NCBI GenBank assembly: GCA_030524705.1 | Contig: JAUNGD010000029.1 | Location: 1-41,208, forward strand | From: Lachnospiraceae bacterium | GTDB taxonomy: Bacteria; Bacillota; Clostridia; Lachnospirales; Lachnospiraceae | Direction: 5' to 3' | Length of the DNA: 41,208 bases | Shown: positions 25,428 to 41,208 of the stretch, one piece after another | Position numbering within the stretch: position 1 is the stretch's first letter | Layout: each line of letters starts with the position of its first letter | The notes under the pieces: model-generated | Told to the model about the DNA's origin: nothing | The model's database searches: none | The model's input: only the letters and a program-made list of their open reading frames with translations | Position numbers and translations under genes: made by a program

Positions 25428-25514
25428 ATGAAAGCTTCCTGTCTCCCAAAGGACTTATATACCAGAGGCTTTTTGAATCAGAAATTTTCCGGGGACAGAA
25501 AGCGGACGCACTGA
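25428..25514 (+). CDS. Candidate 28-residue peptide or gene remnant
   Basis: An ATG at 25428 with a very good GAAGGAGG site 7 bp upstream opens 28 codons (MKASCLPKDLYTRGFLNQKF then a short basic end) before TGA. Its last 37 bp overlap the 3' end of allH on the other strand. The product is basic, has no membrane helix and is not recognised. It may be the surviving 5' end of a gene lost when the allantoin island was joined here, or a chance match. No promoter is evident after the terminator. Confidence 0.25.
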   Translation: MKASCLPKDLYTRGFLNQKFSGDRKRTH

Positions 25515-26365
25515 AGCGCATAGTAAATTCCGCAGAGCGTATCCGTCCCGGAGGAATGGCCGATTTTACAGAAGAGGGCCAGCATTTCGGAGGCGGAGGG
25601 GAGAGCGGTGAGCCGGTTTACCGCAAGGCTGAACTGCCCCTGAAGCGCGCAGCGCAGGAACGCGGCGCTGATGTCGTTCGTATCCCCCAGATGACCTTTT
25701 ATCTGTGCCGACAGCGTCAGGGCAAAGGGGTGAGCGCGGTATCCTGCCAGAATAAGTCCGGCGAGGACTCCGCAGAGAAAATCATCACCGCCGGGGGTCA
25801 GCCCCAGGCCGAGGCCGATCAGGCGGCACAGGACGGCGGCGGCATCCTCCCAGCAGCAGCCCTGAAGCAGACGGTCCGCATCAGAGAGCCGTCTTTGCGC
25901 GGCGGCGAGAAAGGGGATGCTCTCTGCGCGGGCTCTGTCTGTGAAAAGAAGCTCAAAGCTTCCGGCGTCCCGCAGGCTCAGCGCATGAAATATTTCCTTT
26001 TGCAGGTAAGTGCAGGCTTCGCTGGAGAGATCTTTGGACAGCCCGAGATTATGTATAGAGGCCGTTTGCAGGTCAAAAAGGCAAGTGCCGTTTGTGCCGT
26101 TTACCAGAATGACGTGGTCCTGTACCAGGACGGAGGCTCCGGGGCTTAATGCCAGGGCGTTGATCTCCCCGGCAGTCAAATTGGTGATAAGGCTGATGGG
26201 AGACAGAGGTGATCCGGCAGCCTGAAGCGCCAGCAGCTCCCCCTCCAGAGCGAGATTGACTGTTTTGCGGTAAACAGAATGAACGATTCCGTATATAGAA
26301 GGCTTTCTCAGCAGTCCGACGGCATAGTCGGAGGCGGTTGTAACGGCATATTTCACAGGATTCAT
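25478..26365 (-). CDS. allH: DUF2877 protein AllH, subunit of oxamate carbamoyltransferase
   Basis: This 295-residue protein carries the DUF2877 signature GLGLTPGGDDFLCG (about residues 184-199) and a second glycine motif GHSSGTD (269-275). In E. coli the DUF2877 protein YlbF (AllH) forms the oxamate carbamoyltransferase together with FdrA (AllF) and YlbE (AllG); the enzyme phosphorolyses oxalurate to oxamate and carbamoyl phosphate. Here the AllF and AllG parts are one gene 6 kb away (32704-35706), and allH is alone on the opposite strand, divergent from allB. Length matches the E. coli protein (about 271) with a slightly longer N-terminus. The ribosome site (AAAGGAA) is about 11 bp from the ATG, so translation may be weaker than for the operon. 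Confidence 0.85.
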   Translation of the reverse strand: MNPVKYAVTTASDYAVGLLRKPSIYGIVHSVYRKTVNLALEGELLALQAAGSPLSPISLITNLTAGEINALALSPGASVLVQDHVILVNGTNGTCLFDLQTASIHNLGLSKDLSSEACTYLQKEIFHALSLRDAGSFELLFTDRARAESIPFLAAAQRRLSDADRLLQGCCWEDAAAVLCRLIGLGLGLTPGGDDFLCGVLAGLILAGYRAHPFALTLSAQIKGHLGDTNDISAAFLRCALQGQFSLAVNRLTALPSASEMLALFCKIGHSSGTDTLCGIYYALQCVRFLSPENF

Positions 26366-26695
26366 AATGGCAGGTTCCTTTCACAAATATTAATGGTATG
26401 GTATCAAAAAAGGAGAGGAGAGACAATGGAAAAATGATTAAAATGCTAAAAACCAGTTTTTAATTTTTAAAGCAAAATTTTAAAACGTACAAATAGCCAA
26501 ATTTTCCGGATGATATGAAAAAATTAAAATTGACAGGAAAATAACAAAGGTTATCTATACAATATGCACAAAAAACGGGATGGAAATTCTATATTCCAGT
26601 GTATTGTGTTTTTGTATAAATTCAAGTACAATCAAAATCAGCAATAAAAAAAGGTTGACCGGAACTAAAAAAATTGCACAAGGAGGAAAAGAAGT
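26366..26695. promoter_or_regulatory. Divergent control region between allH and allB
   Basis: This 330-bp AT-rich stretch has no gene. Towards allB, TTGTGT (26604-26609), 17 bp and TACAAT (26627-26632) form a plausible promoter; an upstream TTGACA (26530-26535) with TATACAAT (26556-26563) has too long a spacing to be convincing. GGTTGACC (26653-26660) lies 20 bp after the first -10 box and is also the core of the palindrome before allE. Near allH, GGTATGGTAT (26395-26404) is a direct repeat of GGTAT that may be a site for - strand control. Confidence 0.5.
26653..26660. promoter_or_regulatory. Probable operator core GGTTGACC before allB
   Basis: This self-complementary-type GGTTGACC (GGT and ACC arms around TG) is identical to the centre of the 16-bp palindrome at 30723-30738 and sits at a similar distance after a predicted -10 box. 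The flanks here are not palindromic, so binding would be weaker. The likely partner is the GntR/FCD regulator at 40077-41081. Confidence 0.45.
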
Positions 26696-28069
26696 ATGTA
26701 TGATGTATTAGTGAAGAACGGCAGGATCGTTACAGCTGATGCAGTAACGGAGGGGAATATTGCTGTCAAGGACGGAAAGATCGCAGCAATACTTGCATCA
26801 GGTGTGGAGCCGGAAGCATCCAGAGTGATCGACGCAGCAGGAAAATATGTATTTCCGGGCGCCATCGATACCCATGCACATCTGAATGATCCGGGGTATG
26901 AGTGGCGTGAGGACTATGAGCACGGCACGGCGGCGGCAGCGGCAGGCGGATACACCACGATCATTGACATGCCGCTTCAGAATGAGCCGGCCCTGACCAA
27001 TGCGGACCTGTTTGACAAGAAGGTGGCGGCAGTGGATGCGAACGCATATGTGGATTACTGTTTTTGGGGCGGACTGGTACCGGACAATTTCGATGACCTG
27101 AAGGGCCTGCATGACAAAGGCTGTGTGGCGTTCAAATCCTTTATCGGACCGGTGTCTCCAGATTACAGCTCCCTGAGCTATGGACAGGCATACGAAGCCA
27201 TGGAGAGGATCAAGGAGTTCGGCGGACGCGCGGGGTTCCACTGCGAGGATTTTTCCATGATCAAGTGGCAGGAGCAGCGCATGATAAAGGAAGGCCGTCT
27301 CGACTGGCAGGGCTTCCTGGATTCCAGACCGGTACTGGCAGAGATGCTGGCTACGGTGGATATCATTGAGATCGCCAAGGCTACGGGATGCAAGGCACAC
27401 ATTTGCCATGTCAGCAGTCCGGATGTGGCGCAGAAAATTAAAGAGGCCCAGCAGGAGGGCTATGACATTACCGCAGAGACCTGCTCTCATTATCTCAGCA
27501 TGACGGACAAGGACGTGATCGCGAACGGACCGCTGTTTAAGTGCGCGCCGCCGCTTCGCTCCCAGGAGGAAGTGGACCGGCTGTGGTCCTATGTAGAGGA
27601 CGGCACCTTCAGTGGTATTGCCAGCGACCATTCACCGTGCTCCTACGATGAGAAATTCAACGAGATCCTCGGGAACAAGATTACCAATGTATTCGAGGTG
27701 TGGGGCGGCATCAGCGGTATCCAGAGCGGTTTCCAGGTGGCATTCCATGAGGGCTGTGTGAAGCGCGGCGTATGTCCTTCTGTGCTGGCAAACGCTATGG
27801 TGGTCCAGCCGGCGAAGGCCTTTGGTATTTATGGCAGAAAGGGCGACTTAAAGCCTGGCTTCGATGCGGATCTTGTCATCATTGATCCGGAAAGAGAGTG
27901 GGAGATCACCAGCGAGTCCCTGCATTATGTAAATAAGATTTCTGCATTTGTAGGCATGAAGGGCAAGGGACTTCCGGTGGTTACGATGATCCGCGGAAGC
28001 GTCGTTGCAGAAGACGGCAAAATAACAGGTGAAAAGGGGTATGGAAGCCTGATCACAAGAATTGACTGA
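26696..28069 (+). CDS. allB: Allantoinase
   Basis: The 457-residue amidohydrolase has the binuclear metal ligands of cyclic amidohydrolases: DTHAH (H60, H62), carboxylated lysine K147 in AFKSFIG, H182 in HCED, H238 in HICHVSSPD and D311 in SDHSPC. E. coli AllB has K146 at the matching place and is 453 residues long. Segments GTAAAAAGGYTTIIDMPL and WGGISGIQS are typical of allantoinase rather than dihydropyrimidinase or D-hydantoinase. The enzyme opens the hydantoin ring of allantoin to give allantoate, the first pathway step. AAGGAGG precedes the ATG. It forms a two-gene unit with the permease. The surrounding allC, allD and allE genes strongly support the substrate. Confidence 0.95.
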   Translation: MYDVLVKNGRIVTADAVTEGNIAVKDGKIAAILASGVEPEASRVIDAAGKYVFPGAIDTHAHLNDPGYEWREDYEHGTAAAAAGGYTTIIDMPLQNEPALTNADLFDKKVAAVDANAYVDYCFWGGLVPDNFDDLKGLHDKGCVAFKSFIGPVSPDYSSLSYGQAYEAMERIKEFGGRAGFHCEDFSMIKWQEQRMIKEGRLDWQGFLDSRPVLAEMLATVDIIEIAKATGCKAHICHVSSPDVAQKIKEAQQEGYDITAETCSHYLSMTDKDVIANGPLFKCAPPLRSQEEVDRLWSYVEDGTFSGIASDHSPCSYDEKFNEILGNKITNVFEVWGGISGIQSGFQVAFHEGCVKRGVCPSVLANAMVVQPAKAFGIYGRKGDLKPGFDADLVIIDPEREWEITSESLHYVNKISAFVGMKGKGLPVVTMIRGSVVAEDGKITGEKGYGSLITRID

Positions 28070-28106
28070 TTAGAGGGAAATCAGTGTTTTGAAAGGAGAG
28101 CGAAAG

Positions 28107-29465
28107 ATGAGTATAGTTGATAATAAAAATCTGAATCCGGAGCTGGTTAAAAATGTGGATCCGGATCTGCAGCCGACGAAAAAACGTATCATGGGTCCCG
28201 TATCCTATGCGGCAAGCTTTATGGGCGGCTGCGTATCCATCGGTACCTTTTCCATGGGCGCCGGCCTGATCGGCGTGCTGACGGTGGGGCAGGCGATCCT
28301 GGCAATGGTCATCGGATGTCTGGTCATTGCGATTGCCTTGGTATTTATTGGCAACTGCGGCCATAAATACGGTATCCCTTATACGGTACAGCTTCGAAGC
28401 AGCTTCGGTACCACGGGTATCAAGATTCCCGGCCTTCTGCGCGGTGTGCCGGCGATCATCTGGTTCGGTTTTCAGAGCTGGGTAGGCGCGGGCGCGATCA
28501 ACAGCTGCCTGAAGATATTGTTTGGCTTTGACAATCTGCCGGTAATATATGTGCTGTTCACGGCGCTTCAGGTCGCTCTGGCCATCAAGGGCTTCGAGGG
28601 AATCAAATGGATGGAGAACATCTCCTGTGTATTTATTATTGCGATCCTGATTTATATGCTTTACGTTGTCAATACACAGTTCGCGACGGAAATCAATGAC
28701 GTATTCTCCGGAATCAAGGGTACATGGGGCATGCCGTTCTGGGCAGCGACCACATCCTTCCTGGGTATTTATTCGACCATGATCGTAAACGCTTCGGACT
28801 ATGCCCGCAATGTGGAGCACAAGGTAGGGCCGGTCTTCACAGGAAGCATTTACACGGTGGCGATTCTTCCGGTTACTCTGTTCATGGGCCTGATCGGACT
28901 TCTTGTAACGGCAGCTACCGGAAACAGCGACCCGGTGGTGGTATTCTCCACGACCATGGGAAGCAAATTCCTTACCATCGTGACCCTTTTGTTCATTGCA
29001 TTTGCGCAGGTAACGACGAACGTGCTGAACAACATCGTTCCGCCGTCCTATGTATTGATGGAGTCCTTCCATATGAAATGGTCTCACGCGACGGTGCTGG
29101 TGGGCATTCTGTCCGCGTGTTGCATGCCGTGGAAGCTTGTTACGGATGAATCCGCAGCAGGACTGAACCTGTTCACGCAGTTCTACTCTGCATTCTTAGG
29201 GCCGATCTTTGCGGTAATGGTGGTGGACTACTATATTCTCCGGAAGCAGAAGCTGGATATCAACGATATGTATGATAAGGAAGGCGCGTTTAAGGGAATC
29301 AACTGGGCGGCAGTCATTGCCATCATCATCGGTTCTCTGTGCTCGCTGCTGGTGGTACAGCTGTCCTGGTACGTGAGCCTGATCCCCACCGGAGTGGCTT
29401 ATTATTTCCTGATGAAGGTCATGAAGAGCTCCAAATCCTTCCGCAAGGGTACTATTTTTGAATAA
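28107..29465 (+). CDS. NCS1-family permease, probable allantoin transporter
   Basis: This 452-residue protein has about 12 hydrophobic helices and NCS1 hallmarks: an N-terminal DLQPTKKRIMGPVSYAASFMGG segment, a GIPYTVQLRSSFG loop after helix 2, and WFGFQSWVGAGAINSCL. NCS1 carriers move nucleobases and hydantoins with H+ or Na+; E. coli AllW (YbbW) and B. subtilis PucI are allantoin carriers of this family. Here the gene follows allB at 37 bp, so allantoin is the probable substrate; cytosine or uracil are alternatives. The start at 28107 is chosen for GAAAGGAGAG about 5 bp upstream. Transcription seems to end in the hairpins at 29485-29613. Confidence 0.88.
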   Translation: MSIVDNKNLNPELVKNVDPDLQPTKKRIMGPVSYAASFMGGCVSIGTFSMGAGLIGVLTVGQAILAMVIGCLVIAIALVFIGNCGHKYGIPYTVQLRSSFGTTGIKIPGLLRGVPAIIWFGFQSWVGAGAINSCLKILFGFDNLPVIYVLFTALQVALAIKGFEGIKWMENISCVFIIAILIYMLYVVNTQFATEINDVFSGIKGTWGMPFWAATTSFLGIYSTMIVNASDYARNVEHKVGPVFTGSIYTVAILPVTLFMGLIGLLVTAATGNSDPVVVFSTTMGSKFLTIVTLLFIAFAQVTTNVLNNIVPPSYVLMESFHMKWSHATVLVGILSACCMPWKLVTDESAAGLNLFTQFYSAFLGPIFAVMVVDYYILRKQKLDINDMYDKEGAFKGINWAAVIAIIIGSLCSLLVVQLSWYVSLIPTGVAYYFLMKVMKSSKSFRKGTIFE

Positions 29466-29484
29466 TATGATGTTAGAATCAAAA

Positions 29485-29548
29485 GATGCCATGCTAAAAC
29501 CACTTATGTGCAAGCACATCGTGGTTTATGACTTTTGACTCTGGCATC
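29485..29548. terminator. Nested palindrome between convergent genes
   Basis: GATGCC (29485-29490) pairs with GGCATC (29543-29548); inside it AAACCAC (29497-29503) pairs with GTGGTTT (29521-29527) and ATGTGC (29506-29511) with GCACAT (29514-29519) around a 2-nt loop. The inner stem is long and nearly perfect. It lies between the permease (+) and the hydrolase (-), where a terminator is expected, but no strong T tract follows. Confidence 0.5.
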
Positions 29549-29560
29549 ATGATAACGTAC

Positions 29561-29650: not shown

Positions 29651-30496
29651 TTATTGTTCTTTAAGAAAGCTCAGGGTAGCTTCCAGAAGCTGACCGGTGA
29701 AGGGATCCTCCGGGTCCCGGTCGAAGTCATGTTCATTTCCGGAGGCGATAAAGCGCACGGCGTGATATTTATTGCAGAGCTCCAGAAATTCTGCGTACGG
29801 CACGTCCGGATCTCCGGTGCTGTGGGCGCAGAACAGAGGGCAGGGCAGTGTATCGCAGGTGCGGAGGGAATAATTCAGATAGAAAAATTTTTCCCGGCCT
29901 GTATAGATGAGCTGCTTCCAGCTGCCGGTCTGCCTTGCATAGACATAGATGCTGTAATGCGTATCAAGACTGCCGTCGGCGTCGGGCGTCTTTGCGGCGT
30001 GGTCCAGGCAGGACTCCTCCACGGGAGGCAGGCTGCAGTACCAGGAAGAGGGCGTGCAGAACCAGTTGTCGCACAAAAATCCGTACCCATAGTAGGAGAG
30101 GATTCCCTTTGGCGGCTGCAGGAGCCGGCCTCCGGCAGCCGCGATCAGACAGAGATATGCGCCGGCGGAACGGCCCCAGAGATAGTAGGGGAGCGTGCTG
30201 TCGGTGTAGGCGGCATCGCTTTCGCAGGCGCTGTTTATGGAATGGCAGACGTCCTCAAGGATCATCTCAAGTCCTGCGGCAGGGGCCAGTGGGTAATCAT
30301 AGGCAATGATATCATATCCGGCTCCGGTCAGAGCGGCGATATGGCCCTCCGGCAGATCGCGCCGGGAGCCGTAGAGCAGCCCGCCGCCGTGAAAATACAG
30401 GATGCGCGCCTTTGTGGGCACGCTGGTATCGGTGTATACTGTGGTCCGTTTGACATACGGTGCATCGGTCAATTGGTAATCTTTTGTTTCAAGCAT
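29651..30496 (-). CDS. Alpha/beta hydrolase of the HSL-like esterase type
   Basis: The 281-residue protein has the oxyanion motif HGGG (36-39), nucleophile elbow GRSAGA with S110, D229 in STGDPDVP and H256 in NEHDFD, a complete alpha/beta-hydrolase triad. The elbow GRSAG instead of GDSAG and the small size resemble bacterial carboxylesterases of the hormone-sensitive-lipase group. There is no signal peptide, so it acts in the cytoplasm. It sits on the - strand inside the allantoin island, divergent from allE, with AAGGAGA before its ATG. No step of the known pathway needs an esterase; it may hydrolyse an unstable amide or ester intermediate, or simply be a passenger. Cysteine content is high for a cytoplasmic enzyme of this size. 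Substrate unknown. Confidence 0.75.
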   Translation of the reverse strand: MLETKDYQLTDAPYVKRTTVYTDTSVPTKARILYFHGGGLLYGSRRDLPEGHIAALTGAGYDIIAYDYPLAPAAGLEMILEDVCHSINSACESDAAYTDSTLPYYLWGRSAGAYLCLIAAAGGRLLQPPKGILSYYGYGFLCDNWFCTPSSWYCSLPPVEESCLDHAAKTPDADGSLDTHYSIYVYARQTGSWKQLIYTGREKFFYLNYSLRTCDTLPCPLFCAHSTGDPDVPYAEFLELCNKYHAVRFIASGNEHDFDRDPEDPFTGQLLEATLSFLKEQ

Positions 30497-30722: not shown

Positions 30723-30738
30723 AACTGGTTGACCAGTT
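30723..30738. promoter_or_regulatory. Perfect 16-bp operator palindrome before allE
   Basis: AACTGGT-TG-ACCAGTT is a perfect palindrome, with the TGGT/ACCA arms typical of FadR-subfamily GntR operators (usual spacing three bases, here two). It covers about +5 to +20 of the predicted transcript, where a bound repressor would block elongation or promoter clearance. Its core recurs before allB at 26653-26660. The nearby GntR/FCD gene (40077) is the obvious candidate binder. Confidence 0.65.
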
Positions 30739-30796: not shown

Positions 30797-31588
30797 ATGA
30801 GCTATTTAAACAATCAGATTGGATATCGCGAGGAGCTTCTGGCAACACGTTCCGTAGTAAGAAAAGAGAATTTTGTTTTACTTGAGCCGGACGGACTGGT
30901 AAAGAACAGCATTCCGGGATACGTAAACTGCGATGTGACGATTCTGGGCTCACCTGCCATGGGCGCTTCTTTTGCTGATTATCTTGTAACTGTACATGCA
31001 GGCGGAAAAAATGAAAAATTCGGCGGTGAGGGCCTGGAGTCCTTCCTGTATGTGGTAGAGGGCGAAGTGACGGTAAAGAATGCGGACAAAGAAGCAGTCC
31101 TCACAAAGGGCGGATACATCTACTCCCCGGCCGGAAATCTGGTCTCTTTCGAGAATAAGGGCGAGGCGGATGCGACGCTGTACACCTACAAGCGCAGATA
31201 CGAGAAGGTGGAGGGCTATGAGATGCCGGAAACCATCGTAGGAAATGACAATGACCTTCCGTGGATCTCATATGAAGGCATGGAGAACTGCTACATCAAG
31301 GATTTCCTTCCGGCAGCAGGAGATTTCCGTTTCGACATGAATATGCATATCCTGAAATTCAATCTGGGCGCTTCCCACGGATATATCGAGACCCATGTGC
31401 AGGAGCACGGCATGCTGTTCCTGACCGGAAAGGCAATGTACCGTCTCGATGACGAGTGGATCCCGGTAAAGAAGGGCGACTATGTATTTATGGATGCTTA
31501 CTGCCCGCAGGCATGCTACGCAGTAGGAAAGGATGAGGACCTTACCTACATCTACTCCAAGGACTGCAACAGAGACGTACAGCTTTAA
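30797..31588 (+). CDS. allE: (S)-ureidoglycine aminohydrolase
   Basis: This 263-residue bicupin matches E. coli AllE (261 residues). The C-terminal cupin has the manganese ligand pattern ETHVQEH (E198, H200, H204) and Q238 in CPQAC, as in the plant enzyme UGlyAH. It converts (S)-ureidoglycine to (S)-ureidoglycolate and ammonia, protecting the unstable product of AllC from non-stereospecific decay. It is first in the operon allE-allD-allFG-allK-lctP-orf64-allC, behind the promoter at 30683-30711 and its operator. The start has AAAGTGAGG upstream. The call is firm because both motif and neighbours agree. Confidence 0.95.
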   Translation: MSYLNNQIGYREELLATRSVVRKENFVLLEPDGLVKNSIPGYVNCDVTILGSPAMGASFADYLVTVHAGGKNEKFGGEGLESFLYVVEGEVTVKNADKEAVLTKGGYIYSPAGNLVSFENKGEADATLYTYKRRYEKVEGYEMPETIVGNDNDLPWISYEGMENCYIKDFLPAAGDFRFDMNMHILKFNLGASHGYIETHVQEHGMLFLTGKAMYRLDDEWIPVKKGDYVFMDAYCPQACYAVGKDEDLTYIYSKDCNRDVQL

Positions 31589-31633: not shown

Positions 31634-32692
31634 ATGAAACTTTCACGAGATGAGCTGAAGGGCCTGATGAAAAACAAAATGATGAAAGCAGGACTTCCGG
31701 AGGATCAGGCAGAGATCGTATCCGAGATCCTGACCTGGTCCGACGAGAGAGGCTACCATTCTCACGGAGCAGTCCGTGTGGAGTATTACAGTGAGCGTAT
31801 TGCAAAGGGAGGCTGGACTATCAACCCGGATTTCAAATGGGATGTGACGGGTCCCTGCTCGGCGATTTTTGACGGCGACAACGCCAGCGGCTATGTGGCA
31901 GTGAAATATGCGATGGAAAAGGCCATTGATATGGCAAAGGAAAACGGCGTGGCGATCGTGGGTGTAAAGAATATCGCACACAGCGGTGCCCTTGGCTACT
32001 ATACAGAGATGGCAGCGGATGCCGATATGACGGCGATCACGTTCTGCCAGTCCGATCCGATGGCCGTACCCTACGGCGGAACAGAGCCGTATTACGGGAC
32101 GAACCCGATCTCCTTCGGAGCTCCGACAGCGGACGGCCGCAAGGTGATTTTCGATATGGCGACAACGGTGCAGGCATGGGGTAAGATCCTTGACAAGAGA
32201 GCGAGAAATCTGGAGATCCCCTCCGACTGGGCCGTGGATGAGGAGGGAAATCCCGTTACGGATCCGCACAAAGTAAATGCTCTGATGCCGATCGCAGGCG
32301 CAAAGGGCTATGGCCTGATGATGCTGGTGGATGTATTCTCCGGCGTACTTCTGGGCGTACCCTTCGGTAAGCATGTCAGCTCGATGTACCATGACCTTTC
32401 TGAGGGAAGAGGACTTGGCCAGCTGATTATCGTGATGGACCCGAACCGTTTCGTTGGTCTTGACGCATTCAAACAGAGCATGTCGCAGGTATGTGACGAG
32501 CTTGGCGAGATGAAGCCGGCTCCGGGCTTTGACAAGGTAAATTATCCGGGCGAGCGGGCCGTACAGAGAAAAGAAAAACAGATGGCGACAGGCGGTATCG
32601 ATATTGCAGATGATGTTTACGAATATCTGATCAGCGATAAGGTACACAGCTACAGCAAGAGCTACGACCACAAAAACAGATTTGCAGATTAA
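31634..32692 (+). CDS. allD: (S)-ureidoglycolate dehydrogenase
   Basis: The 352-residue protein belongs to the malate/L-lactate dehydrogenase (Ldh_2) family, with the ERGYHSHGAVRVEYY segment near the N-terminus, NIAHSGALGYY holding the probable catalytic histidine, and YYGTNPISFGAP and AGAKGYGLMMLVD blocks. AllD oxidises ureidoglycolate to oxalurate with NAD+. The start at 31634 has AAGGAGG 7 bp upstream; an in-frame ATG at 31604 would add ten residues without a good site. It is 11 bp from allFG, which uses oxalurate. Other Ldh_2 members act on malate, sulfolactate or 2,3-diketogulonate, but the context fixes the role here. Length is the same as E. coli AllD (349). Confidence 0.94.
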   Translation: MKLSRDELKGLMKNKMMKAGLPEDQAEIVSEILTWSDERGYHSHGAVRVEYYSERIAKGGWTINPDFKWDVTGPCSAIFDGDNASGYVAVKYAMEKAIDMAKENGVAIVGVKNIAHSGALGYYTEMAADADMTAITFCQSDPMAVPYGGTEPYYGTNPISFGAPTADGRKVIFDMATTVQAWGKILDKRARNLEIPSDWAVDEEGNPVTDPHKVNALMPIAGAKGYGLMMLVDVFSGVLLGVPFGKHVSSMYHDLSEGRGLGQLIIVMDPNRFVGLDAFKQSMSQVCDELGEMKPAPGFDKVNYPGERAVQRKEKQMATGGIDIADDVYEYLISDKVHSYSKSYDHKNRFAD

Positions 32693-32703: not shown

Positions 32704-35700
32704 ATGTTAAGAACAGTTGTTAAAAAAGGCAGCTACCATGATTCCGTAGTGCTGATGCTCCTCACAAATCATATTTCCACGATTGAGGGCGTAAAGAAAG
32801 TTTCGATTATGATGGCGACTCCGGCAAATAAGGATATTTTCAAGCAGAGCGGCCTTGATACAGAGGAGTTGATGGCGGCCACAGCCAACGACATGGTAGT
32901 CGTGGCGGATGTGGATGACGAGGGTCTTCTGGATACCATCATGGCAGAGACCGAAGAATTTTTCAAAAAGCAGTCCACCGAGAGCGAAGGAAAGAAAGCC
33001 GCTGAGAGCGTAAAGAACTGGGACAAGGCGCTGAAGAAGATGCCGGATGCGAATCTGGCAGTCATCTCCATCCCGGGCGCATACGCAGCTCTGGAGGCGG
33101 ACCGTGCTCTGGACGAGGGACTGAACGTATTTATGTTCAGCGACAACGTGACCATCGAGGATGAGAAGGCACTGAAGGAAAAGGCTCACAGCAAGGGGCT
33201 TTCCGTGATGGGCCCCGACTGCGGCACGGGAATCATTCAGAGCGTGCCTATCGCATTTACAAATAAAGTAGCTCCTGGCTCCATCGGCATTATCGGGGCT
33301 TCCGGAACAGGTATTCAGGAGCTGACGACGATCATTGACCGTCTGGGCGAAGGCGTGACGAATGCCATTGGTATCGGCGGACGGGACCTGAACGCAGCTA
33401 TCGGCGGTATCACTATGATGGATATGATCGACGCTATGGAGGACGACGATTCCGTTAAGGTGCTGATCATCATCTCCAAGCCGCCTGCAAAGGAAGTAAG
33501 AGACAAGATCTCCGCAAGACTCAGCAGCTTCAGCAAGCCGGTAGTCACCCTGTTCGTGGGCGAGAAGCCGGAGTATCATGAGGAGAATTTCTATCATACC
33601 TATACACTGGATGAGGCGGCGCGTCTCGCAGTCAGCCTCGTAAGAGGAGAAGAGGTGCCGGAGGCGACTGCCGATGTGGACGAGTCCACCTTCTTTAAGG
33701 CAGAAGAAAAGAAGACCATCAAGGCGTACTATTCAGGCGGAACTCTGGCAAATGAGGCCGCTATGCTGATCAAGGACGCGCTGGGCTGCACCGTACCTCC
33801 GGAGGATATTGAGGGATACATGCTGCAGCTTGACGGCAACGTGGTAGTGGATCTGGGCGACGATGCATATACCCAGGGCAAGCCGCATCCGATGATCGAC
33901 CCGGCAAAGAGAATTGAGTGCATGCAGAGCGCAGTGGATGATGAGTCCACCGGCGTTATCCTGTTGGATATCATGCTGGGCTACGGCTCCCATGCAGATA
34001 TGGCAGGAGCTCTCCTTCCGTCCATCATCGAGCTTCGGGACAAGGCAAAGGCACAGGGAAGAAAGGTATTCTTCGTGGCAACGGTCTGCGGAACGAGAAC
34101 AGACTTCCAGGGCTACGATGAGGCAGTAAATAAATTAAAAGAGGCAGGCGTGATCGTATGTGAGAACAACAAGCTCGCATGCCGTACCGCGATCCGGGCC
34201 ATCGGAAGAGATTTTGAGGAGCCGGTAAAGGAGATCCGCCCGAAACAGGTAGTGGAGGTGGAGAAATCAGCGCCGTCCGATAAGCTGCGGGAGCTCCTTT
34301 CCGAGAAGCCGCGGATCATCAACATCGGTCTGAAGAGCTTTGCGGACGTCTGCGAGGAGTTCGGCTGCGAAGTCGTACAGTATGACTGGATGCCTCCTGC
34401 AGGCGGAAACGTGGAGCTGATTAAGGTTCTGAATTTCCTGAGAAATTATGAGGGCATCGACGAGAAGAACCGTGAGGTCATTGCAAAGGTCGTGGCCAGC
34501 CAGCCGATCCTGAAGGATAATGTTCGGGCAAAGGAAGTGATTCCGGAGCTTGCCGAGGGCAAGGTCATCCTTCATGCAGGCCCGCCGGTGGCATATGAGA
34601 ACATGCCGGATCCGATGCAGGGCTCCTGCGTAGGCGCCGTTCTGTTCGAGGAGTGGGCGGATAATGAGGCTGACGCAAGAAAGATGCTGGAGGGCGGAGA
34701 GATCAAATTCATTCCGTGCCATCACTGCAACGCGGTAGGCCCCATGGGAGGTATCACCTCTCCGAACATGGCAGTATTCGTAGTAGAAAATGAGACAGGC
34801 GGCAACAGAGCTTACTGTACGATGAACGAAGGCATCGGCAAGGTGCTCCGCTTCGGCGCATATTCCGAGGAGGTCGTGAACCGTCTTCGCTGGATGAGAG
34901 ACGTTTTGGGTCCGACTCTTGGCAGAGCGCTCCGCTCTATGCCCAACGGCCTGGCGCTGAATCCGCTGATCGCAAAGGCGGTTGCCATGGGCGATGAGTT
35001 TCATCAGAGAAATATTGCGGCATCTCTTGCTTTCCTGAAGGAGATGGCTCCGATTATCACGAAGATGGATATGGATGAGAAGGATCGCTTTGACGTGATC
35101 AAGTTCCTGGCAGATACGGACCAGTTCTTCCTGAACATCATGATGGCTACAGGCAAGGCTGTTATGGATGACGCCCGCAAGGGAACGGACGGCACCATCG
35201 TTACCGCTATGTGCCGCAACGGCTATGAGTTCGGTATCCGCATCGCGGGTATGGGCGACGAGTGGTTCACCGGTCCGGTCAATACGCCTCAGGGCCTGTA
35301 CTTTACGGGATACGATGCAGAGGACGCCTGCAAGGATATGGGCGACTCCGCCATCACAGAGACCTTCGGCGTGGGCGGCATGGCGATGATCGCAGCTCCG
35401 GCTGTTACACGTTTCGTAGGTGCGGGCGGATACGAGGATGCGCTTCGTACCTCTAACGAGATGATGGAGATCTGTATCGACCGCAACCCGAACTTTACGG
35501 TTCCGACCTGGAACTTCCAGGGCATCTGCCTTGGCATCGATGCAAGGCTCGTGGTTGAGAAGCAGATCACCCCGGTCATCAATACGGGTATCGCTCACCG
35601 CATCGCAGGCTACGGCCAGGTGGGAGCAGGTACGGTACATCCGCCGATCGAATGCTTTGAGAAGGCAATCACGGCGTATGCAAAGAAATTGGGATATCAA

Positions 35701-35706
35701 GGTTAA
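32704..35706 (+). CDS. allFG: AllF-AllG fusion, catalytic part of oxamate carbamoyltransferase
   Basis: This 1000-residue protein joins two proteins that are separate in E. coli. Residues 1 to about 580 match FdrA/AllF: N-terminal KKGSYHDSVVLMLLTNHIS, MATPANKD, KMPDANLAVISIPG, MGPDCGTG, GASGTGIQEL, GIGGRDL, DLGDD and RIINIGLKSFA. Residues about 583-1000 match YlbE/AllG (DUF1116): AGPPVAYENMPDPMQGSCVGA, CHHCNAVGPMGG, NEGIGKVLRFG, RNGYEFGIRIAG and GQVGAGTVHPP. The AllF part has the fold of succinyl-CoA-synthetase alpha subunits. With AllH it converts oxalurate and phosphate to oxamate and carbamoyl phosphate. Reading is continuous with no stop or frameshift at the junction. It lies between allD and allK, enzymes of the previous and next steps. 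Confidence 0.9.
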   Translation: MLRTVVKKGSYHDSVVLMLLTNHISTIEGVKKVSIMMATPANKDIFKQSGLDTEELMAATANDMVVVADVDDEGLLDTIMAETEEFFKKQSTESEGKKAAESVKNWDKALKKMPDANLAVISIPGAYAALEADRALDEGLNVFMFSDNVTIEDEKALKEKAHSKGLSVMGPDCGTGIIQSVPIAFTNKVAPGSIGIIGASGTGIQELTTIIDRLGEGVTNAIGIGGRDLNAAIGGITMMDMIDAMEDDDSVKVLIIISKPPAKEVRDKISARLSSFSKPVVTLFVGEKPEYHEENFYHTYTLDEAARLAVSLVRGEEVPEATADVDESTFFKAEEKKTIKAYYSGGTLANEAAMLIKDALGCTVPPEDIEGYMLQLDGNVVVDLGDDAYTQGKPHPMIDPAKRIECMQSAVDDESTGVILLDIMLGYGSHADMAGALLPSIIELRDKAKAQGRKVFFVATVCGTRTDFQGYDEAVNKLKEAGVIVCENNKLACRTAIRAIGRDFEEPVKEIRPKQVVEVEKSAPSDKLRELLSEKPRIINIGLKSFADVCEEFGCEVVQYDWMPPAGGNVELIKVLNFLRNYEGIDEKNREVIAKVVASQPILKDNVRAKEVIPELAEGKVILHAGPPVAYENMPDPMQGSCVGAVLFEEWADNEADARKMLEGGEIKFIPCHHCNAVGPMGGITSPNMAVFVVENETGGNRAYCTMNEGIGKVLRFGAYSEEVVNRLRWMRDVLGPTLGRALRSMPNGLALNPLIAKAVAMGDEFHQRNIAASLAFLKEMAPIITKMDMDEKDRFDVIKFLADTDQFFLNIMMATGKAVMDDARKGTDGTIVTAMCRNGYEFGIRIAGMGDEWFTGPVNTPQGLYFTGYDAEDACKDMGDSAITETFGVGGMAMIAAPAVTRFVGAGGYEDALRTSNEMMEICIDRNPNFTVPTWNFQGICLGIDARLVVEKQITPVINTGIAHRIAGYGQVGAGTVHPPIECFEKAITAYAKKLGYQG

Positions 35707-35816: not shown

Positions 35817-36755
35817 ATGGAAAAGAAAAAGGTTGTTATTGCCCTCGGAGGAAATGCCCTCGGAAAGGATATTGAGGAGCAGAAGGAGGCAGTAGCAAAG
35901 ACGGCGAAGGTGATCGTGGATCTGGCGGAGCAGGGGCTGGATATCATCATCACTCACGGAAACGGTCCGCAGGTGGGGATGATCCAGAAGGCGATGGACA
36001 ATCTGATCTGTGAGTCAGACAATTACAAGCAGGTCCCGCTTCCCACCAGCGTAGCCATGAGCCAGGGATACATCGGTATTGATCTGCAAAATGCGATCAA
36101 GTATGAGCTGTATGCCAGAGGCATTGACGGCAAGGTCTCTACGATCCTTTCACAGGTGGAGGTGGACCCGGAGGACGAGGCATTTCAGAACCCGACGAAG
36201 CCGATCGGCCGTTTCATGACAAAGGAAGAGGCGGAGCAAAATGAGGCAAAAGGCATACGCTGTATGGAGGATGCCGGAAGGGGATACCGCATTGTGGTGG
36301 CCTCTCCGATGCCAAAGCGTATCCGGGAGCTTTTGACCATCAAGACGCTGGTGGGTGCGGGCCATATCGTGATTACCTGCGGCGGCGGCGGAATTCCGGT
36401 CATCAGTGATGAGCAGGGACGCCTTGTGGGGGTCAATGCAGTCATTGACAAGGACAATGCCAGCAGTCTTCTGGCGGCGCAGCTGGGTGCAGATTATCTG
36501 ATCATTCTGACTGCTGTAGAAAAGGTGGCGATCAACTTCGGAAAAGAGAATCAGGAATGGCTCTCTGACCTGACGGTGGAACAGGCGAAGGAATATATTG
36601 CGCAGGATCAGTTCGCAAAGGGCTCCATGCTTCCGAAGATCGAAGCGGCGATCCGTTTTGCGGAATCCGCGCCGGGACGCCGGACCCTGATCACACTGCT
36701 GGATAAGGCGGCGGCCGGAATCGCCGGAGAGACGGGAACCGTCATACACGTATAA
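35817..36755 (+). CDS. allK: Carbamate kinase
   Basis: This 312-residue amino-acid-kinase family protein has the carbamate kinase signatures ALGGNALGKD at the N-terminus, THGNGPQVG, CGGGGIPV and KGSMLPKIEAA. It transfers phosphate from carbamoyl phosphate to ADP, yielding ATP and carbamate, which decays to CO2 and ammonia. In this cluster it harvests the energy of the carbamoyl phosphate made by AllFGH, as AllK (YbcF) does in E. coli. Arginine deiminase or ornithine carbamoyltransferase genes, the usual partners of ArcC, are absent, so the role in allantoin use is well supported. AAGGAGG precedes the ATG. Confidence 0.94.
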   Translation: MEKKKVVIALGGNALGKDIEEQKEAVAKTAKVIVDLAEQGLDIIITHGNGPQVGMIQKAMDNLICESDNYKQVPLPTSVAMSQGYIGIDLQNAIKYELYARGIDGKVSTILSQVEVDPEDEAFQNPTKPIGRFMTKEEAEQNEAKGIRCMEDAGRGYRIVVASPMPKRIRELLTIKTLVGAGHIVITCGGGGIPVISDEQGRLVGVNAVIDKDNASSLLAAQLGADYLIILTAVEKVAINFGKENQEWLSDLTVEQAKEYIAQDQFAKGSMLPKIEAAIRFAESAPGRRTLITLLDKAAAGIAGETGTVIHV

Positions 36756-36783
36756 ATAGTAATGCCTGAAACTGGAGGTAAAT

Positions 36784-38394
36784 ATGAATATACCGGTAAC
36801 TCCATTTATGTGGATCATGGCATTTTTGCCAATCATTGTTCTTCTGGTCCTGATGATAAAATTTAACTGGGGCGCGACGGAGGCGGCGGCAGTCGGCCTT
36901 GTGATCACGGCAGTCACGGGAGTCGCATTCTACAAGGCGGACCTTAAGCTTTTGGCGGTGGAGAGCGCAAAGGGAATCTGGAGCGCTCTTATCATTCTGA
37001 TCATTGTGTGGACCGCCATTTTGATGTATCAGGTAGGGGATGAGGCCAGGGCCTTCCTGGTGATACGGAACGGAATGCGCAAGCTGCTGCCAAATGAGCT
37101 TTTGCTGGTAATTGCAATGGGATGGATCTTTGAGAGCTTCCTGCAGGGCATCACCGGCTTCGGCGTTCCGGTGGCTGTGGGCGCGCCTCTGCTGATCGGT
37201 ATCGGGGTAAGCCCGCTTTGGGCCGTTATCATCCCGCTGTTCGGCCAGGCCTGGGGAAACACCTTTGGTACCTTGGCTGCAGCCTGGGATTCCCTTGCCA
37301 TGTCTGCGGGACTGGCGGTGGGCAGCGATGCGTATCTCAGGACTGCTTTTTGGACGGCACTTTTCCTGCTGCTTTGGAATGCGGTGACGGGGCTGGCGAT
37401 CTGCTGGTTCTACGGCAAGGGAAAAGCGCTGAAAAAGGGACTTCCCGCTGTTCTTGTCATGACGGTGATCCAGGGCGGCGGCGAGCTTTTGCTCAGCCAG
37501 GTGAATACGACGCTTTCCTGTTTCCTTCCGTCCTGTATTTCTCTCGTAGTCATTTTGCTCATGGGCAGAATGAAGATGTATAAAGAGGAGTGGAGCATCA
37601 GTGACAGTGCGATCATGGACCGTTCTGCGAAGGGTGCAGGCGTGGACGAGGCCCCGTCTGATATGACGCTGGTGCAGGCGTTCGTACCGTATTTCCTCCT
37701 GTCCGCGCTGACACTGATCGTACTTCTTGTAAAGCCGATCAACGCCTTCCTGGGGCAGTTTTCCTTTGGACTGGCCTTTCCGGAGACTCAGACCGGGTAT
37801 GGGTACGTGAATGCGGCATCGGACTGCTTTTCTCCGCTGGCGCTGTTCACCCACGCAAGCATGTTCCTGTTTATTTCTTCCATCGTAGGTCTGATCTATT
37901 ACAGAAAGCACCGCTGGATCAAGGACGGCGGCGTGAAGCGGGTTTTCGTGAAATCCGTTTCCATGACGATGCCCTCCGGTATCGCGGTGATCGGTCTGGT
38001 CATTATGTCGAAGCTGATGAGCGGTACGGGGCAGACTGTGGTGCTGGCAAATGGAATTGCCACGGTTCTGGGCAAGGCTTACGTTGTGCTTGCTCCTTTC
38101 GTCGGCCTGCTGGGTACTTTTATGACGGGAAGCAATATGAGCTCCAATATCCTGTTCGGAGATTTCCAGATGACAACGGCCAATCTGCTGAATGTGGATG
38201 CGGCGGCCGTTCTCGGCGCGCAGTCTGCGGGCGGCGCCATCGGAAGCGCGGTCAGCCCCAGCAAGATCATTCTGGGTACGACCACTGCCAACATCCTTGG
38301 ACGCGAGGGAGAGGTTCTGAAAAAGATTCTCAGTATTACCGTACCGGCCACCATCGTAATCGGTGTGATCGTGTTCGTGATGCTGGCATTATAG
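36784..38394 (+). CDS. LctP-family permease, candidate oxamate or oxalurate carrier
   Basis: The 536-residue protein has about 13 membrane helices and LctP (TC 2.A.14) blocks: ESFLQGITGFGVPVAVGAP, a PLFGQAWGNTFG loop and, near the end, FMTGSNMSSNILFG and AQSAGGAIGSAVSPSKI. Known members carry L-lactate, D-lactate or glycolate (LldP, GlcA) with protons. It is 28 bp after allK, inside the operon. Oxamate is a close analogue of pyruvate and lactate and is the excreted end product of allantoin fermentation in E. coli, so export of oxamate, or uptake of a ureido acid, is a reasonable inference. Nothing in the residues proves the substrate. It has no frameshift or truncation. Confidence 0.88.
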   Translation: MNIPVTPFMWIMAFLPIIVLLVLMIKFNWGATEAAAVGLVITAVTGVAFYKADLKLLAVESAKGIWSALIILIIVWTAILMYQVGDEARAFLVIRNGMRKLLPNELLLVIAMGWIFESFLQGITGFGVPVAVGAPLLIGIGVSPLWAVIIPLFGQAWGNTFGTLAAAWDSLAMSAGLAVGSDAYLRTAFWTALFLLLWNAVTGLAICWFYGKGKALKKGLPAVLVMTVIQGGGELLLSQVNTTLSCFLPSCISLVVILLMGRMKMYKEEWSISDSAIMDRSAKGAGVDEAPSDMTLVQAFVPYFLLSALTLIVLLVKPINAFLGQFSFGLAFPETQTGYGYVNAASDCFSPLALFTHASMFLFISSIVGLIYYRKHRWIKDGGVKRVFVKSVSMTMPSGIAVIGLVIMSKLMSGTGQTVVLANGIATVLGKAYVVLAPFVGLLGTFMTGSNMSSNILFGDFQMTTANLLNVDAAAVLGAQSAGGAIGSAVSPSKIILGTTTANILGREGEVLKKILSITVPATIVIGVIVFVMLAL

Positions 38395-38454
38395 CAGGTG
38401 CAGGATACTGCAATTGATGCAGCTGTGTTTCTATGTCATAGTAGAGGTGAGATT

Positions 38455-38649
38455 ATGGAAAATAAAGGATTCTGGGGAACGAAGGCCGGACATCTGACGC
38501 TGGCATTCCTTGTGATCATGGCAGCCTTTGTCCTGATCATGGCAGGGCTGGCGGCGGGCAGCGATGTCCTGTGCGCGGCAGGCTTTCTGATCATTGTCGC
38601 GGCAATGCTTTATTCGCCTGTTGAGGTGTACATATTAAAGAAAAAATAA
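38455..38649 (+). CDS. Two-helix membrane protein of 64 residues
   Basis: I do not recognise this protein. It starts MENKGFWGTKAGHLTLAF and has two hydrophobic helices (about residues 14-34 and 38-57), then a basic end (YILKKK), so both ends should face the cytoplasm. GAGGTGAG lies before its ATG. It sits 60 bp after the LctP-type permease and 27 bp before allC, in the same direction, so it is part of the allantoin operon. Small two-helix proteins next to carriers are sometimes accessory subunits; here it may help the permease. An in-frame upstream extension to 38398 has no ribosome site and is rejected. Confidence 0.65.
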   Translation: MENKGFWGTKAGHLTLAFLVIMAAFVLIMAGLAAGSDVLCAAGFLIIVAAMLYSPVEVYILKKK

Positions 38650-38676
38650 ATCAAAAATGTATTAGGAGGATGAAAC

Positions 38677-39918
38677 ATGGGAATGGAGAAAATCACAGGC
38701 AGGATCGCCACAGATCTTGAGGGGCTGAAGCAGTTTACGGCTACTCCGGGAGACGGATGTACAAGGCTTCCGTTCACAAAAGAAGCGAGGGATGCCGTAG
38801 AGTACCTGAAGGTCGTTATGACCGAGGCAGGACTTGAGGTACATGAGGATGCGGCAGGAAACGTATTCGGTATCATGAAGGGCGAGGATGAAAGCGCACC
38901 CTGCGTTATGATGGGCTCCCACTATGATTCTGTAAGGAACGGCGGAGACTTCGACGGGATCGCTGGCGTTGTCTGCGCCATCGAAGCGGCGAGACAGCTG
39001 AGGGAGCGTGGGATCGCACCGAAGCGCAATTTCGTAGTGGTCGGCTTCTGCGACGAGGAAGGTATGCGTTTCGGTACGGGATATTTTGGCTCCGGCGCTA
39101 TGCTGGGCAACCGTGACGTGGAATACTGTAAAAAGTTCAAGGATACGGACGGAATTTCCATTTATGATGCAATGAAGGGCTACGGCCTTGACCCGGAGAA
39201 GATCATGGATGCAAAATGGCCGGATGGCTCCATCGGCTCTTTCCTGGAGCTGCATATTGAGCAGGGACCGGTTCTTGACGCAGAAAACATTGAGCTCGGA
39301 CTGGTGGATTGCATCGTAGGTATCCAGCGCTACATGGTGACGGTGCACGGAAGAGCGGACCATGCGGGAACGACGCCGATGGACATGCGTCTTGACGCGG
39401 TGGATGCGGCAACGAAGGTCATCTCCAAGATCGCGGACTGGGCCAGAGAAAAGGCGGACGGCACTGTGGCAACGACGGGATATATCAATACCGTTCCGGG
39501 CGGAATGAACATTGTGGCTGAGAAGGTAGAGTTCACCGTTGACATCCGTTCCAGCAACAACGACAATATCAATGATATTACAAGAAGGATCCGTGCAGCC
39601 CTGGATCATGAGACGAAGGAAATGGGCGGAAGCTATGAGATGGACAATAAGCTGACGATCACTCCGGTCATGCTGTCGGAGGAAATGCTTCAGATCATGG
39701 AGGACGACTGCAGGGAGAAGGGCTACAGCTGCAAGCGTCTTGCCAGCGGTGCAGGCCATGATTCTCTGGAGATCGGTCAGGTCATCCCCACGGTCATGCT
39801 GTTCGTGCCGAGTAAGGACGGCAGGAGCCACTGTCCGGTGGAATTCACAAAATACAGTGATTTTGCCAAGGCGTCTGTCATCATGACAGACCTTGCACAG
39901 AAGCTTCTTGAAAGATAA
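38677..39918 (+). CDS. allC: Allantoate amidohydrolase
   Basis: This 413-residue M20-type amidohydrolase (hydantoinase/carbamoylase family) has the metal ligands H82 and D93 in GSHYDSVRNGGDFDG, E127/E128 in CDEEGMRF, H193 in LHIEQGPVL and a late histidine in GAGHDSLEI. E. coli AllC has 411 residues. It hydrolyses allantoate to (S)-ureidoglycine, CO2 and ammonia. The dimerisation domain contains HGRADHAGTTPMDMR. N-carbamoyl-L-amino acid hydrolase (AtzC/HyuC) is the nearest alternative; the other all genes decide for AllC. AGGAGG lies before the ATG. It is the last enzyme of the operon, although it acts second in the pathway. Confidence 0.93.
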   Translation: MGMEKITGRIATDLEGLKQFTATPGDGCTRLPFTKEARDAVEYLKVVMTEAGLEVHEDAAGNVFGIMKGEDESAPCVMMGSHYDSVRNGGDFDGIAGVVCAIEAARQLRERGIAPKRNFVVVGFCDEEGMRFGTGYFGSGAMLGNRDVEYCKKFKDTDGISIYDAMKGYGLDPEKIMDAKWPDGSIGSFLELHIEQGPVLDAENIELGLVDCIVGIQRYMVTVHGRADHAGTTPMDMRLDAVDAATKVISKIADWAREKADGTVATTGYINTVPGGMNIVAEKVEFTVDIRSSNNDNINDITRRIRAALDHETKEMGGSYEMDNKLTITPVMLSEEMLQIMEDDCREKGYSCKRLASGAGHDSLEIGQVIPTVMLFVPSKDGRSHCPVEFTKYSDFAKASVIMTDLAQKLLER

Positions 39919-40076: not shown

Positions 40077-41081
40077 ATGGGGGAAGAGGAAAGAAATCCA
40101 GCTTATAAGAGAGAAAACATGCGCCTGCTCAGACGTCATCTGGGACTGACGCAGAAGGAATTTATCGACCGGTTTTTGTCGGATGAGAATGGAAAGCCGA
40201 CCATGAGCGTTGCTACATATTCCAATCTGGAATCAAAGGGCGGAGAGAGAGTGAATGAGGTCATTCTGGCTGCTTCCGAAAAGATGGGAGTGGACTCTAT
40301 GATATTTTCCATGGTGCCGGAGGAATTTGCAGTAAAGGCAGACATGCTCCTGCCCAGCAGTATTGACGAGGAAAATTTTCACCAGAATGGGGCGAAAAAG
40401 GGAAACATCGATCAGCTTTTGAACCGGCTGACCATGTATTTTGCGGAACAGATCTTTGAAAAAAAGCTCAAAAAGGGCGATAAGATCGAATCGGACCGGG
40501 TACTGGCTGCTAAGCTGGACGTGGGCCGTTCAGCCATCCGGGAAGCCTTAAAGGTGCTGGATGTTATGGGAATGATCGATATCTGCCCCGGACAGGGAAG
40601 CTACATCAGCAGCAAGGAAGAGAACTTTTTTATCATTCCGCTGTCCTGGTCGCTGTTCCTGAACGGCGGACAGGTGGAGGAGATTCTTGTTGTAAGGAAT
40701 CTTCTGGAGGTAAAGGCGGCAGAGCTTGCAGCAGACTGTAAGAAGGAAGAGAGTCTTGCCAAGCTTTACGATACATTTCACCGGCTGCACAGCACGTACG
40801 TGCAGAAGGATTATAAAGAATTTCTGGAGGAAGATCTTAAGTTTCATCTGTGCATCGCGGAGTGCTCGGGAAATTCCGTGATTTACAGCATGATACAGAC
40901 CATCCGCAACCTGATGAAGCATGTCAGCGGAACAGGTATGGTGGAGGAAAAGCAGCTGAGTGAAATTTATGAAGAACATCAGAAGGTCTATGGCCTTATC
41001 ATTGCCCGGGACGGAAAGGGAGCGGCAGCTGCGATGCGTGAGCATCTGGAAAAAGCAGCGCTGCGGTACAACTTCCAGTAA
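40077..41081 (+). CDS. Regulator with XRE-like HTH, GntR winged helix and FCD domain
   Basis: Three parts are visible in 334 residues. An N-terminal HTH of XRE type (about 13-70; MRLLRRHLGLTQKEFIDRF, SVATYSNLESKG) comes first. A GntR winged helix follows (about 110-178; KLKKGDKIESDRVLAAKLDVGRSAIREALKVLDVMGMI). Last is an FCD ligand domain (about 185-330) with the usual metal-site pattern (D and H in EEDLKFH, then H in EEHQKV and REH). FadR/FCD regulators bind small carboxylates, so oxamate, oxalurate or ureidoglycolate are possible effectors. The extra XRE domain is unusual. The ATG at 40077 has AAGGAGG 6 bp upstream. It is probably the regulator of the cluster and the binder of the GGTTGACC palindrome. 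Confidence 0.85.
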   Translation: MGEEERNPAYKRENMRLLRRHLGLTQKEFIDRFLSDENGKPTMSVATYSNLESKGGERVNEVILAASEKMGVDSMIFSMVPEEFAVKADMLLPSSIDEENFHQNGAKKGNIDQLLNRLTMYFAEQIFEKKLKKGDKIESDRVLAAKLDVGRSAIREALKVLDVMGMIDICPGQGSYISSKEENFFIIPLSWSLFLNGGQVEEILVVRNLLEVKAAELAADCKKEESLAKLYDTFHRLHSTYVQKDYKEFLEEDLKFHLCIAECSGNSVIYSMIQTIRNLMKHVSGTGMVEEKQLSEIYEEHQKVYGLIIARDGKGAAAAMREHLEKAALRYNFQ

Positions 41082-41141
41082 GGGCAGAGTCAAGTGCCCG
41101 GGTAGTATTACAAAACTAGCGATCAAGAAAAGGGAAAACTT

Positions 41142-41208
41142 ATGGAAAAGAAAAAAGGGTTACAAATATCATTAACCACTCAGATTCTGGTTGCCACGGT
41201 AGCCGGTA
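41142..41208 (+). CDS. Start of a probable dicarboxylate/amino acid:cation symporter (cut by window end)
   Basis: Only 22 codons are present: MEKKKGLQISLTTQILVATVAG. The pattern basic start, then LSLTTQILV and a glycine-containing helix is typical of the first helix of DAACS (Na+ or H+:dicarboxylate) carriers. AGGGAAAA precedes the ATG. It lies 60 bp after the regulator in the same direction, so it may be another transport gene of the island. The family call is tentative because so little is visible. Confidence 0.5.
   Translation, partial: MEKKKGLQISLTTQILVATVAG

Follow-up and report, generated by a model that had tools for sequence, protein, structure and literature searches.

A gene cluster at positions 25478-39918 of a 41,208-nt stretch of Lachnospiraceae DNA (contig JAUNGD010000029.1, assembly GCA_030524705.1; "the window" hereafter denotes this whole stretch) very probably encodes a dedicated oxamate-type catabolic route for allantoin. 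The genes can be assigned from allantoinase to carbamate kinase, two subunits of oxamic transcarbamylase (OXTCase), AllF and AllG, are fused in one chain, the arrangement is conserved among relatives and no glycerate branch appears in the host genome as searched; the enzyme activities are predicted by analogy with Escherichia coli. A first-pass annotation of the same DNA had described a compact allantoin fermentation island yielding ATP through carbamate kinase. The compact oxamate-type cluster is borne out by its gene set and by AllK, and "fermentation", in the sense of a self-standing module, proves too strong a word, as discussed below.

Genes were called from a list of open reading frames (ORFs), scored with Pfam and NCBIfam profiles against their cut-offs and compared with E. 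coli K-12 by BLASTP and tblastn. The features, including the regulator beyond the cluster, are as follows.

25478..26365, minus strand: AllH, third subunit of OXTCase, divergent from AllB (PF11392 82.4 bits, cut-off 25)
26696..28069, plus strand: AllB, allantoinase (TIGR03178 426 bits, cut-off 357.85)
28089..29465, plus strand: NCS1-family permease, probable allantoin importer (PF02133 197.4 bits; ATG 28107 is the likelier start)
29651..30496, minus strand: alpha/beta hydrolase (ABH), HSL-type serine hydrolase (PF07859 36.2 bits, cut-off 25)
30726..30735, no strand: inverted repeat TGGTTGACCA, candidate operator, 61 bp before AllE
30797..31588, plus strand: AllE, (S)-ureidoglycine aminohydrolase (TIGR03214 336.3 bits, cut-off 200)
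31634..32692, plus strand: AllD, ureidoglycolate dehydrogenase (TIGR03175 537.5 bits, cut-off 496.2; the ORF opens at TTG 31604, homology at ATG 31634)
32704..35706, plus strand: fused AllF-AllG, 1000 aa, two OXTCase subunits in one chain
35817..36755, plus strand: AllK, carbamate kinase (NF009007 330.5 bits, cut-off 266)
36784..38394, plus strand: LctP-family permease, proposed oxamate exporter (PF02652 224.6 bits, profile positions 4-521 of 522)
38455..38649, plus strand: 64-aa protein with two hydrophobic stretches (judged by eye), proposed LctP partner
38677..39918, plus strand: AllC, allantoate amidohydrolase (NF006771 446.9 bits, cut-off 399)
40077..41081, plus strand: GntR/FCD regulator (ORF from TTG 39930, with a start near 40077 indicated by relatives; PF07729 95.8 bits, PF00392 31.5 bits)

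Pfam, NCBIfam and the E. coli comparison agree that AllB, AllC, AllE and AllD are co-encoded here, and AllF, AllG and AllH are all there with a linked catabolic carbamate kinase. Every gene that the first-pass annotation had named (these eight and two permeases) is thus confirmed, with the corrections that AllF and AllG form one frame and that the second permease belongs to the LctP family; ABH, the 64-aa ORF, the GntR/FCD regulator and LctP as a plausible oxamate exporter had been overlooked. Identity to the E. coli K-12 proteins by BLASTP is highest for AllG (59%), AllE (56%) and AllD (56%), followed by AllF (41%), AllK (38%), AllB (35%), AllC (34%), AllH (30% over 116 aa) and the NCS1 permease (25%), the last scoring 139.9 bits against the NCBIfam allantoin permease model PRK11375, under its cut-off of 620. 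The histidine, lysine and acidic residues of AllB and AllC that we take to be metal-binding all line up. From AllE to AllC the intergenic gaps run from 11 to 110 bp, the 110 bp separating the fused gene from AllK.

Within the fusion, AllF (NF004760 700.8 bits, cut-off 433) covers residues 1-579 and AllG (PF06545 319.5 bits) residues 667-882 of a single ORF, and the E. coli proteins align in the same frame at 32704-34443 and 34447-35694, respectively. An AllG tree of 61 rows places the window AllG in a 36-row OXTCase clade together with the biochemically proven E. coli AllG (support 100/100). Solved relatives are 3dmy for AllF and 3clq for AllG. AllH matched no NCBIfam model. Its structure is confidently modelled (predicted local distance difference test, pLDDT, 95.4) and gave no clue to mechanism, since no PDB fold matched at E<=0.001 (best 0.015, template modelling score 0.13), nor did any PDB sequence at E<=0.001. 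Two loops, GxGLTPxGDD-like at 184-195 and GHSSGxD-like at 269-275, are near-invariant over 25 AllH sequences, which argues for a conserved subunit with a real role; as modelled, it looks like a conserved and perhaps new fold.

Relatives were collected by a contig scan with the AllF-AllG (AllFG) alignment, from which the best 80 of 533 were taken. Those loci of at least 22.5 kb, called long here, comprise 39 fused loci and 17 with split AllF and AllG; genes in them were counted by their similarity to the proteins of the window, and the counts describe near relatives rather than OXTCase as a whole. AllF and AllG share a single frame in 61 of the 80 loci and are split in 19, of which 18 are Bacilli by name and one is Faecalicatena contorta, with a fused Paenibacillus locus (L127) also seen. 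Among the 39 long fused loci, ABH and AllK occur in 38 each, AllC in 37, AllE and AllD in 35 each, LctP in 34, the small ORF in 31, AllB and AllH in 29 each, NCS1 in 28 and the regulator in 21. AllB, AllC, AllE, AllD, AllF, AllG and AllK are all present in 27 of these loci, and AllE-AllD-AllF-AllG-AllK-LctP is contiguous in 29, an arrangement that is therefore not chance. The 17 long split loci hold AllK (17), AllD (14), AllC (14), AllE (13), ABH (10) and AllH (8, surely an undercount for diverged AllH) and, unlike the window, neither LctP nor the small ORF (0/17 for both). At the family level AllG was found in 18 of 299 genomes, the host counted, and is missing from a 99% complete genome of the same genus (G152), so the cluster is patchy. 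Extibacter muris, Muricomes intestini and Sporofaciens musculi are carriers available in culture.

Some relatives depart from this pattern. Fused AllF-AllG without AllD or AllE in the stretch examined is seen in Clostridium nigeriense (L108), Clostridium sp. OS1-26 (L122) and genome G253 (L042). Two adjacent AllK-like matches lie in the clusters of L065 and L067, and many relatives (L052, L053, L057, L059, L080-L083 and others) carry a second AllB-NCS1 pair, ~42-47% identical to that of the window, beside or replacing the closer copy. A clostridial cluster with AllFG 70-80% identical is harbored by a metagenome-assembled genome (MAG) named Lonepinella koalarum (Pasteurellaceae; L098, JAUNED010000018.1), pointing to mis-binning or transfer. 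A citrate synthase gene borders the cluster in the window (23826-25253) and, with 88% identity, also in L070, a Lachnospiraceae MAG, hinting that the two may occupy a common site. G+C content (0.522 in the stretch against 0.495 elsewhere in the window) was uninformative about a foreign origin.

The first-pass annotation held that the lyase/glycerate branch (AllA, Gcl, GlxR, GlxK) is absent from the window, and tblastn with these E. coli proteins and with Hyi indeed returned no match there (E 1e-3). The host genome comprises 3.87 Mb in 145 contigs and is 88.3% complete, so absences from it are not final; in it the GlxR and glycerate kinase (GlxK) families have no match and the Gcl family reaches at best 336.5 bits against a cut-off of 711.2. 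Gcl-family matches occur in all 14 control genomes and exceed the cut-off in E. coli alone, and we read the sub-threshold host protein, on contig C15, as probably an acetolactate synthase. None of 13 AllFG-bearing relatives has Gcl above the cut-off (G253, as noted, lacks AllD and AllE, and G243 is without both in the 20 kb examined). Across the 80 loci, E. coli AllA, Gcl, GlxR and Hyi are unmatched at E 1e-5 and GlxK has one match (L116). The central oxamate-only claim of the first-pass annotation stands at genome level as searched, pending a finished genome.

Several observations weigh against this reading. AllC falls under the strict AllC model TIGR03176 (295.3 against 597.75 bits) and AllK slightly under the TIGR00746 cut-off (353.9 against 358.25). 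LctP, the proposed exit for oxamate, is missing from 17 of the 49 long loci that carry AllD or AllE; ten of those 17 carry an MFS carrier instead (four of them an SDF carrier as well) and seven have no acid carrier of the kinds tested. Finally, the genome does encode two proteins of the AllA fold (PF04115, 31.2 and 28 bits, cut-off 23). If either were a ureidoglycolate lyase, the route would be mixed, with glyoxylate as the electron sink that the NADH from AllD needs, as in other allantoin fermenters. We consider this very improbable: against the best NCBIfam lyase model the two score 43.3 and 25.1 bits (cut-off 160), one aligns with E. coli AllA at 26% identity across 120 aa and the other is unmatched at E 1e-3, they lie on contigs C20 and C66, neither among allantoin genes, and 12 of the 13 AllFG-bearing relatives have no AllA-fold protein (the remaining one scores 36.3 bits). 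With such weak scores and outside the allantoin loci, they are unlikely to represent a hidden glyoxylate branch.

Under the oxamate-only route, NCS1 would bring in allantoin and AllB would open it to allantoate, which AllC and AllE would convert through ureidoglycine to (S)-ureidoglycolate, freeing two NH3 and one CO2. AllD would then produce oxalurate and NADH, the fused AllF-AllG with AllH would phosphorolyse oxalurate to oxamate and carbamoyl phosphate, and AllK would turn the latter into ATP, NH3 and CO2. The exit for oxamate, a pyruvate analogue and metabolic dead end, would be LctP, possibly partnered by the 64-aa membrane protein, and the leftover NADH would pass to the general fermentation of the host. 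AllFGH and AllK are the enzymes of the last two steps in PMC11326118 and PMC9843812; the AllFGH trio was put forward as candidates in 2012 (PMC3364942) and demonstrated to be OXTCase in E. coli in 2024, with optimal conditions of pH 9, 30 C and 10 mM Mg2+ (PMC11326118).

The computed balance, allantoin + 4 H2O -> oxamate + 2 CO2 + 3 NH3 + 2[H], leaves two reducing equivalents, in agreement with the earlier remark that the NADH from AllD has no obvious sink in the cluster. Per allantoin, the predicted net yield would be three of the four nitrogens as NH3 and one ATP, with no assimilable carbon and one NADH over. Because no biomass carbon is gained and one NADH is unpaid, the cluster is better read as salvaging nitrogen and ATP alongside some other fermentation, as in E. 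coli, than as a fermentation of its own. E. coli can draw all its nitrogen from allantoin (PMC11326118) and converts ~80% of it to oxamate, which is not consumed and is named as an inhibitor of lactate dehydrogenase (PMC8550087). Further oxamate hydrolysis of the HpxW type was considered for the host and rejected, since no protein matching PF01019, the family to which HpxW presumably belongs, is found in its genome.

Both permeases of the first-pass annotation are present, and we assign them different roles: probably one importer (NCS1) and one product exporter (LctP). The LctP protein has a full-length PF02652 match and lies under the TIGR00795 cut-off (219.7 against 341.15 bits), so it is a distant member of the family. 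Oxamate resembles pyruvate and lactate, and a carrier of this family would be a natural exit for it. Gene context tips us slightly towards LctP being the oxamate exporter: it sits inside the operon between AllK and AllC, no other family member was found in the host genome, it recurs in most long fused loci (34/39), and other AllFGH-type loci bear acid carriers by carbamate kinase or AllH (SDF in L030, a short-chain fatty acid transporter in L043). On these grounds it is rather unlikely that the protein simply transports lactate or glycolate, lies in the cluster by happenstance and does not move oxamate, even though the characterised family members are L-lactate and glycolate permeases by their NCBIfam model names, and the 17 LctP-less loci speak for this alternative; the matches to those models are partial, 95.9 and 87.4 bits, far under their cut-offs. 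The small ORF accompanies LctP in 44 of 48 LctP loci and is found in none without it. Its differences between relatives by codon position (0.343/0.253/0.597) follow the pattern of a coding gene, and its product, which matches no Pfam family above cut-off, may perhaps be an LctP partner. No paper on oxamate export by a lactate permease appears by title among the matches listed.

ABH is almost as constant as AllK in the fused loci, is found in over half of the long split ones and has no counterpart in the E. coli cluster. Its HGGG motif, GxSAG serine, two aspartates and one histidine are invariant over 22 sequences, with identity down to 28% in Bacilli, so that the catalytic triad pattern is intact. 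Such a hydrolase could in principle act on oxamate (or oxalurate) to give oxalate and the fourth NH3, in which case LctP would export oxalate and oxamate would not be the end product. This appears improbable to us: ABH is transcribed away from the operon, AllK supplies the energy step without it, and no oxamate hydrolase is among its nearest folds. The model (pLDDT 94.1) is closest to 3h04 and 2qru, both uncharacterised, and the other matches in the best 50 rows are esterases at <=21% identity; the fold search therefore did not yield a substrate. We keep oxamate as the predicted end product, with ABH as a putative pathway hydrolase.

Presence of the GntR/FCD regulator tracks a TGGTTGACCA-type half-site. 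The repeat is the only TGGTnnACCA in the window, and GGTnnACC occurs in the ABH-AllE spacer of 20 of 24 loci with the regulator versus 2 of 12 that cover its place and lack it (Fisher 1.9e-4, an optimistic p since the loci are related); ten further loci where the contig ends were set aside. The 11-mer with two mismatches is itself not rare, with 16 matches versus 8.8 expected and as many in 5 of 100 shuffles. The regulator, weak kin of LldR and GlcC, probably governs the AllE operon through this candidate operator. An XRE-type N-terminal domain suspected by eye had no Pfam match at E<=10.

The route itself is already known from E. coli K-12, whose oxamate branch (allB, allC, allD, allE, allFGHK; NC_000913 532451-551332) has the same enzymes all the way from allantoin to oxamate and ATP; what the window holds is an oxamate-only, fused and conserved variant with new parts. 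E. coli differs in having allA, gcl, glxR, hyi and glxK alongside, separate allF and allG, and control by AllS, AllR and ArcA (PMC12535856), whereas the window has the fusion, the added LctP, 64-aa protein and ABH, a GntR/FCD regulator and no glycerate branch found. The same reaction is expected of the Streptococcus allantoicus OXTCase of 1960s enzymology (cited in PMC11326118), for which, unlike here, no gene is known; the split loci of Enterococcus caccae and Lactobacillus (L114, L121, L123) are candidates for the genes of that lineage. Arginine deiminase fermentation and YgeW/UGTCase modules (PMC4016543) likewise phosphorolyse a ureido compound to carbamoyl phosphate and gain ATP by carbamate kinase, but with the classical transcarbamylase fold, to which AllFGH has no similarity (PMC11326118). 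No clostridial oxamate cluster, AllF-AllG fusion or oxamate exporter appears by title among the open-licence papers listed.

A second AllH-AllF-AllG set lies on another host contig (C112, locus L043:6903-18355), with a PF04199 cyclase, an NCS2 permease, carbamate kinase, two amidohydrolases like cytosine and 8-oxoguanine deaminases and a short-chain fatty acid transporter. Similar cyclase-linked clusters occur in other Bacillota (L160-L176, L178-L179): they share AllF, AllG, sometimes AllH and usually carbamate kinase with the window and, in L043, an acid transporter, and they differ in belonging to another AllG group, in the cyclase, often a molybdenum hydroxylase and a nitrilase-type amidase, in some cases genes for an MmdA-like carboxyltransferase and a Na+ pump decarboxylase, and in that AllE and AllD were not found. 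AllG is present in 60 of 398 genomes of a phylum sample, from whose listing 20 places were picked by hand, one of them (L177) of the fused allantoin type. These hold the cyclase in 16 cases, carbamate kinase in 14 (including L177), a nitrilase-type hydrolase in 10, a molybdenum hydroxylase in 9, an MmdA-like carboxyltransferase in 5, a family III CoA-transferase in 4 and a Na+ pump decarboxylase beta subunit in 3. The six non-kinase genes of this list have no match in the 80 OXTCase-type loci at E 1e-5 (as controls, carbamate kinase has 74 and AllG 80). The AllG tree puts 18 cyclase-linked rows, C112 included, outside the OXTCase clade, with one label change and low branch support (63/40). Five loci (L163, L168, L170, L172, L178) combine cyclase-type AllFGH with the MmdA-like carboxyltransferase, some also with the CoA-transferase or the decarboxylase beta subunit, which points to a pathway ending in malonate or methylmalonate.

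Both oxalurate and ureidomalonate belong to the N-acylureas, and this shared nature leads us to a tentative idea, held with less than even confidence: AllF-AllG-AllH may be a family of ATP-conserving N-acylurea phosphorolases, in which the window form takes oxalurate and has its own exporter (LctP and the small protein), and the sister group of C112 and many Bacillota takes another substrate. Our best guess is ureidomalonate, which the PF04199 cyclase would form from barbiturate and the sister AllFGH would split to malonamate and carbamoyl phosphate. Joined in some genomes by the molybdenum hydroxylase (uracil to barbiturate), the nitrilase-type amidase, the family III CoA-transferase and a Na+-pumping malonyl-/methylmalonyl-CoA decarboxylase, this could amount to an undescribed anaerobic pyrimidine fermentation. 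Weighing against it, the cyclase is absent from 4 of the 20 places, the AllG loci L042, L045 and L046 fit neither type, and no molybdenum hydroxylase (PF20256) was found in the host genome; uracil oxidation by the host itself was thus rejected, its pyrimidine pathway being incomplete. N-acylureas other than ureidomalonate also fit the sister group. The uracil routes named in PMC12507026 are the oxidative, reductive, Rut and URC pathways, and no anaerobic pyrimidine pathway of the kind proposed appears by title among the papers listed.

This sister group is the surprising lead of the analysis. It may represent a second pathway that yields carbamoyl phosphate and is directly testable, and it makes labelling every PF06545 protein "oxamate carbamoyltransferase" unsafe. 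The cluster in the window supplies gene-level candidates for oxamate export and for a pathway hydrolase, together with a small membrane protein that belongs to no known family, and the fused OXTCase may prove more tractable than the E. coli enzyme with its three genes. Allantoin is the form in which most mammals excrete purine nitrogen (PMC12507026), so a clostridial module for allantoin-nitrogen salvage would bear on gut nitrogen cycling, and it predicts oxamate, a lactate dehydrogenase inhibitor, as a gut metabolite.

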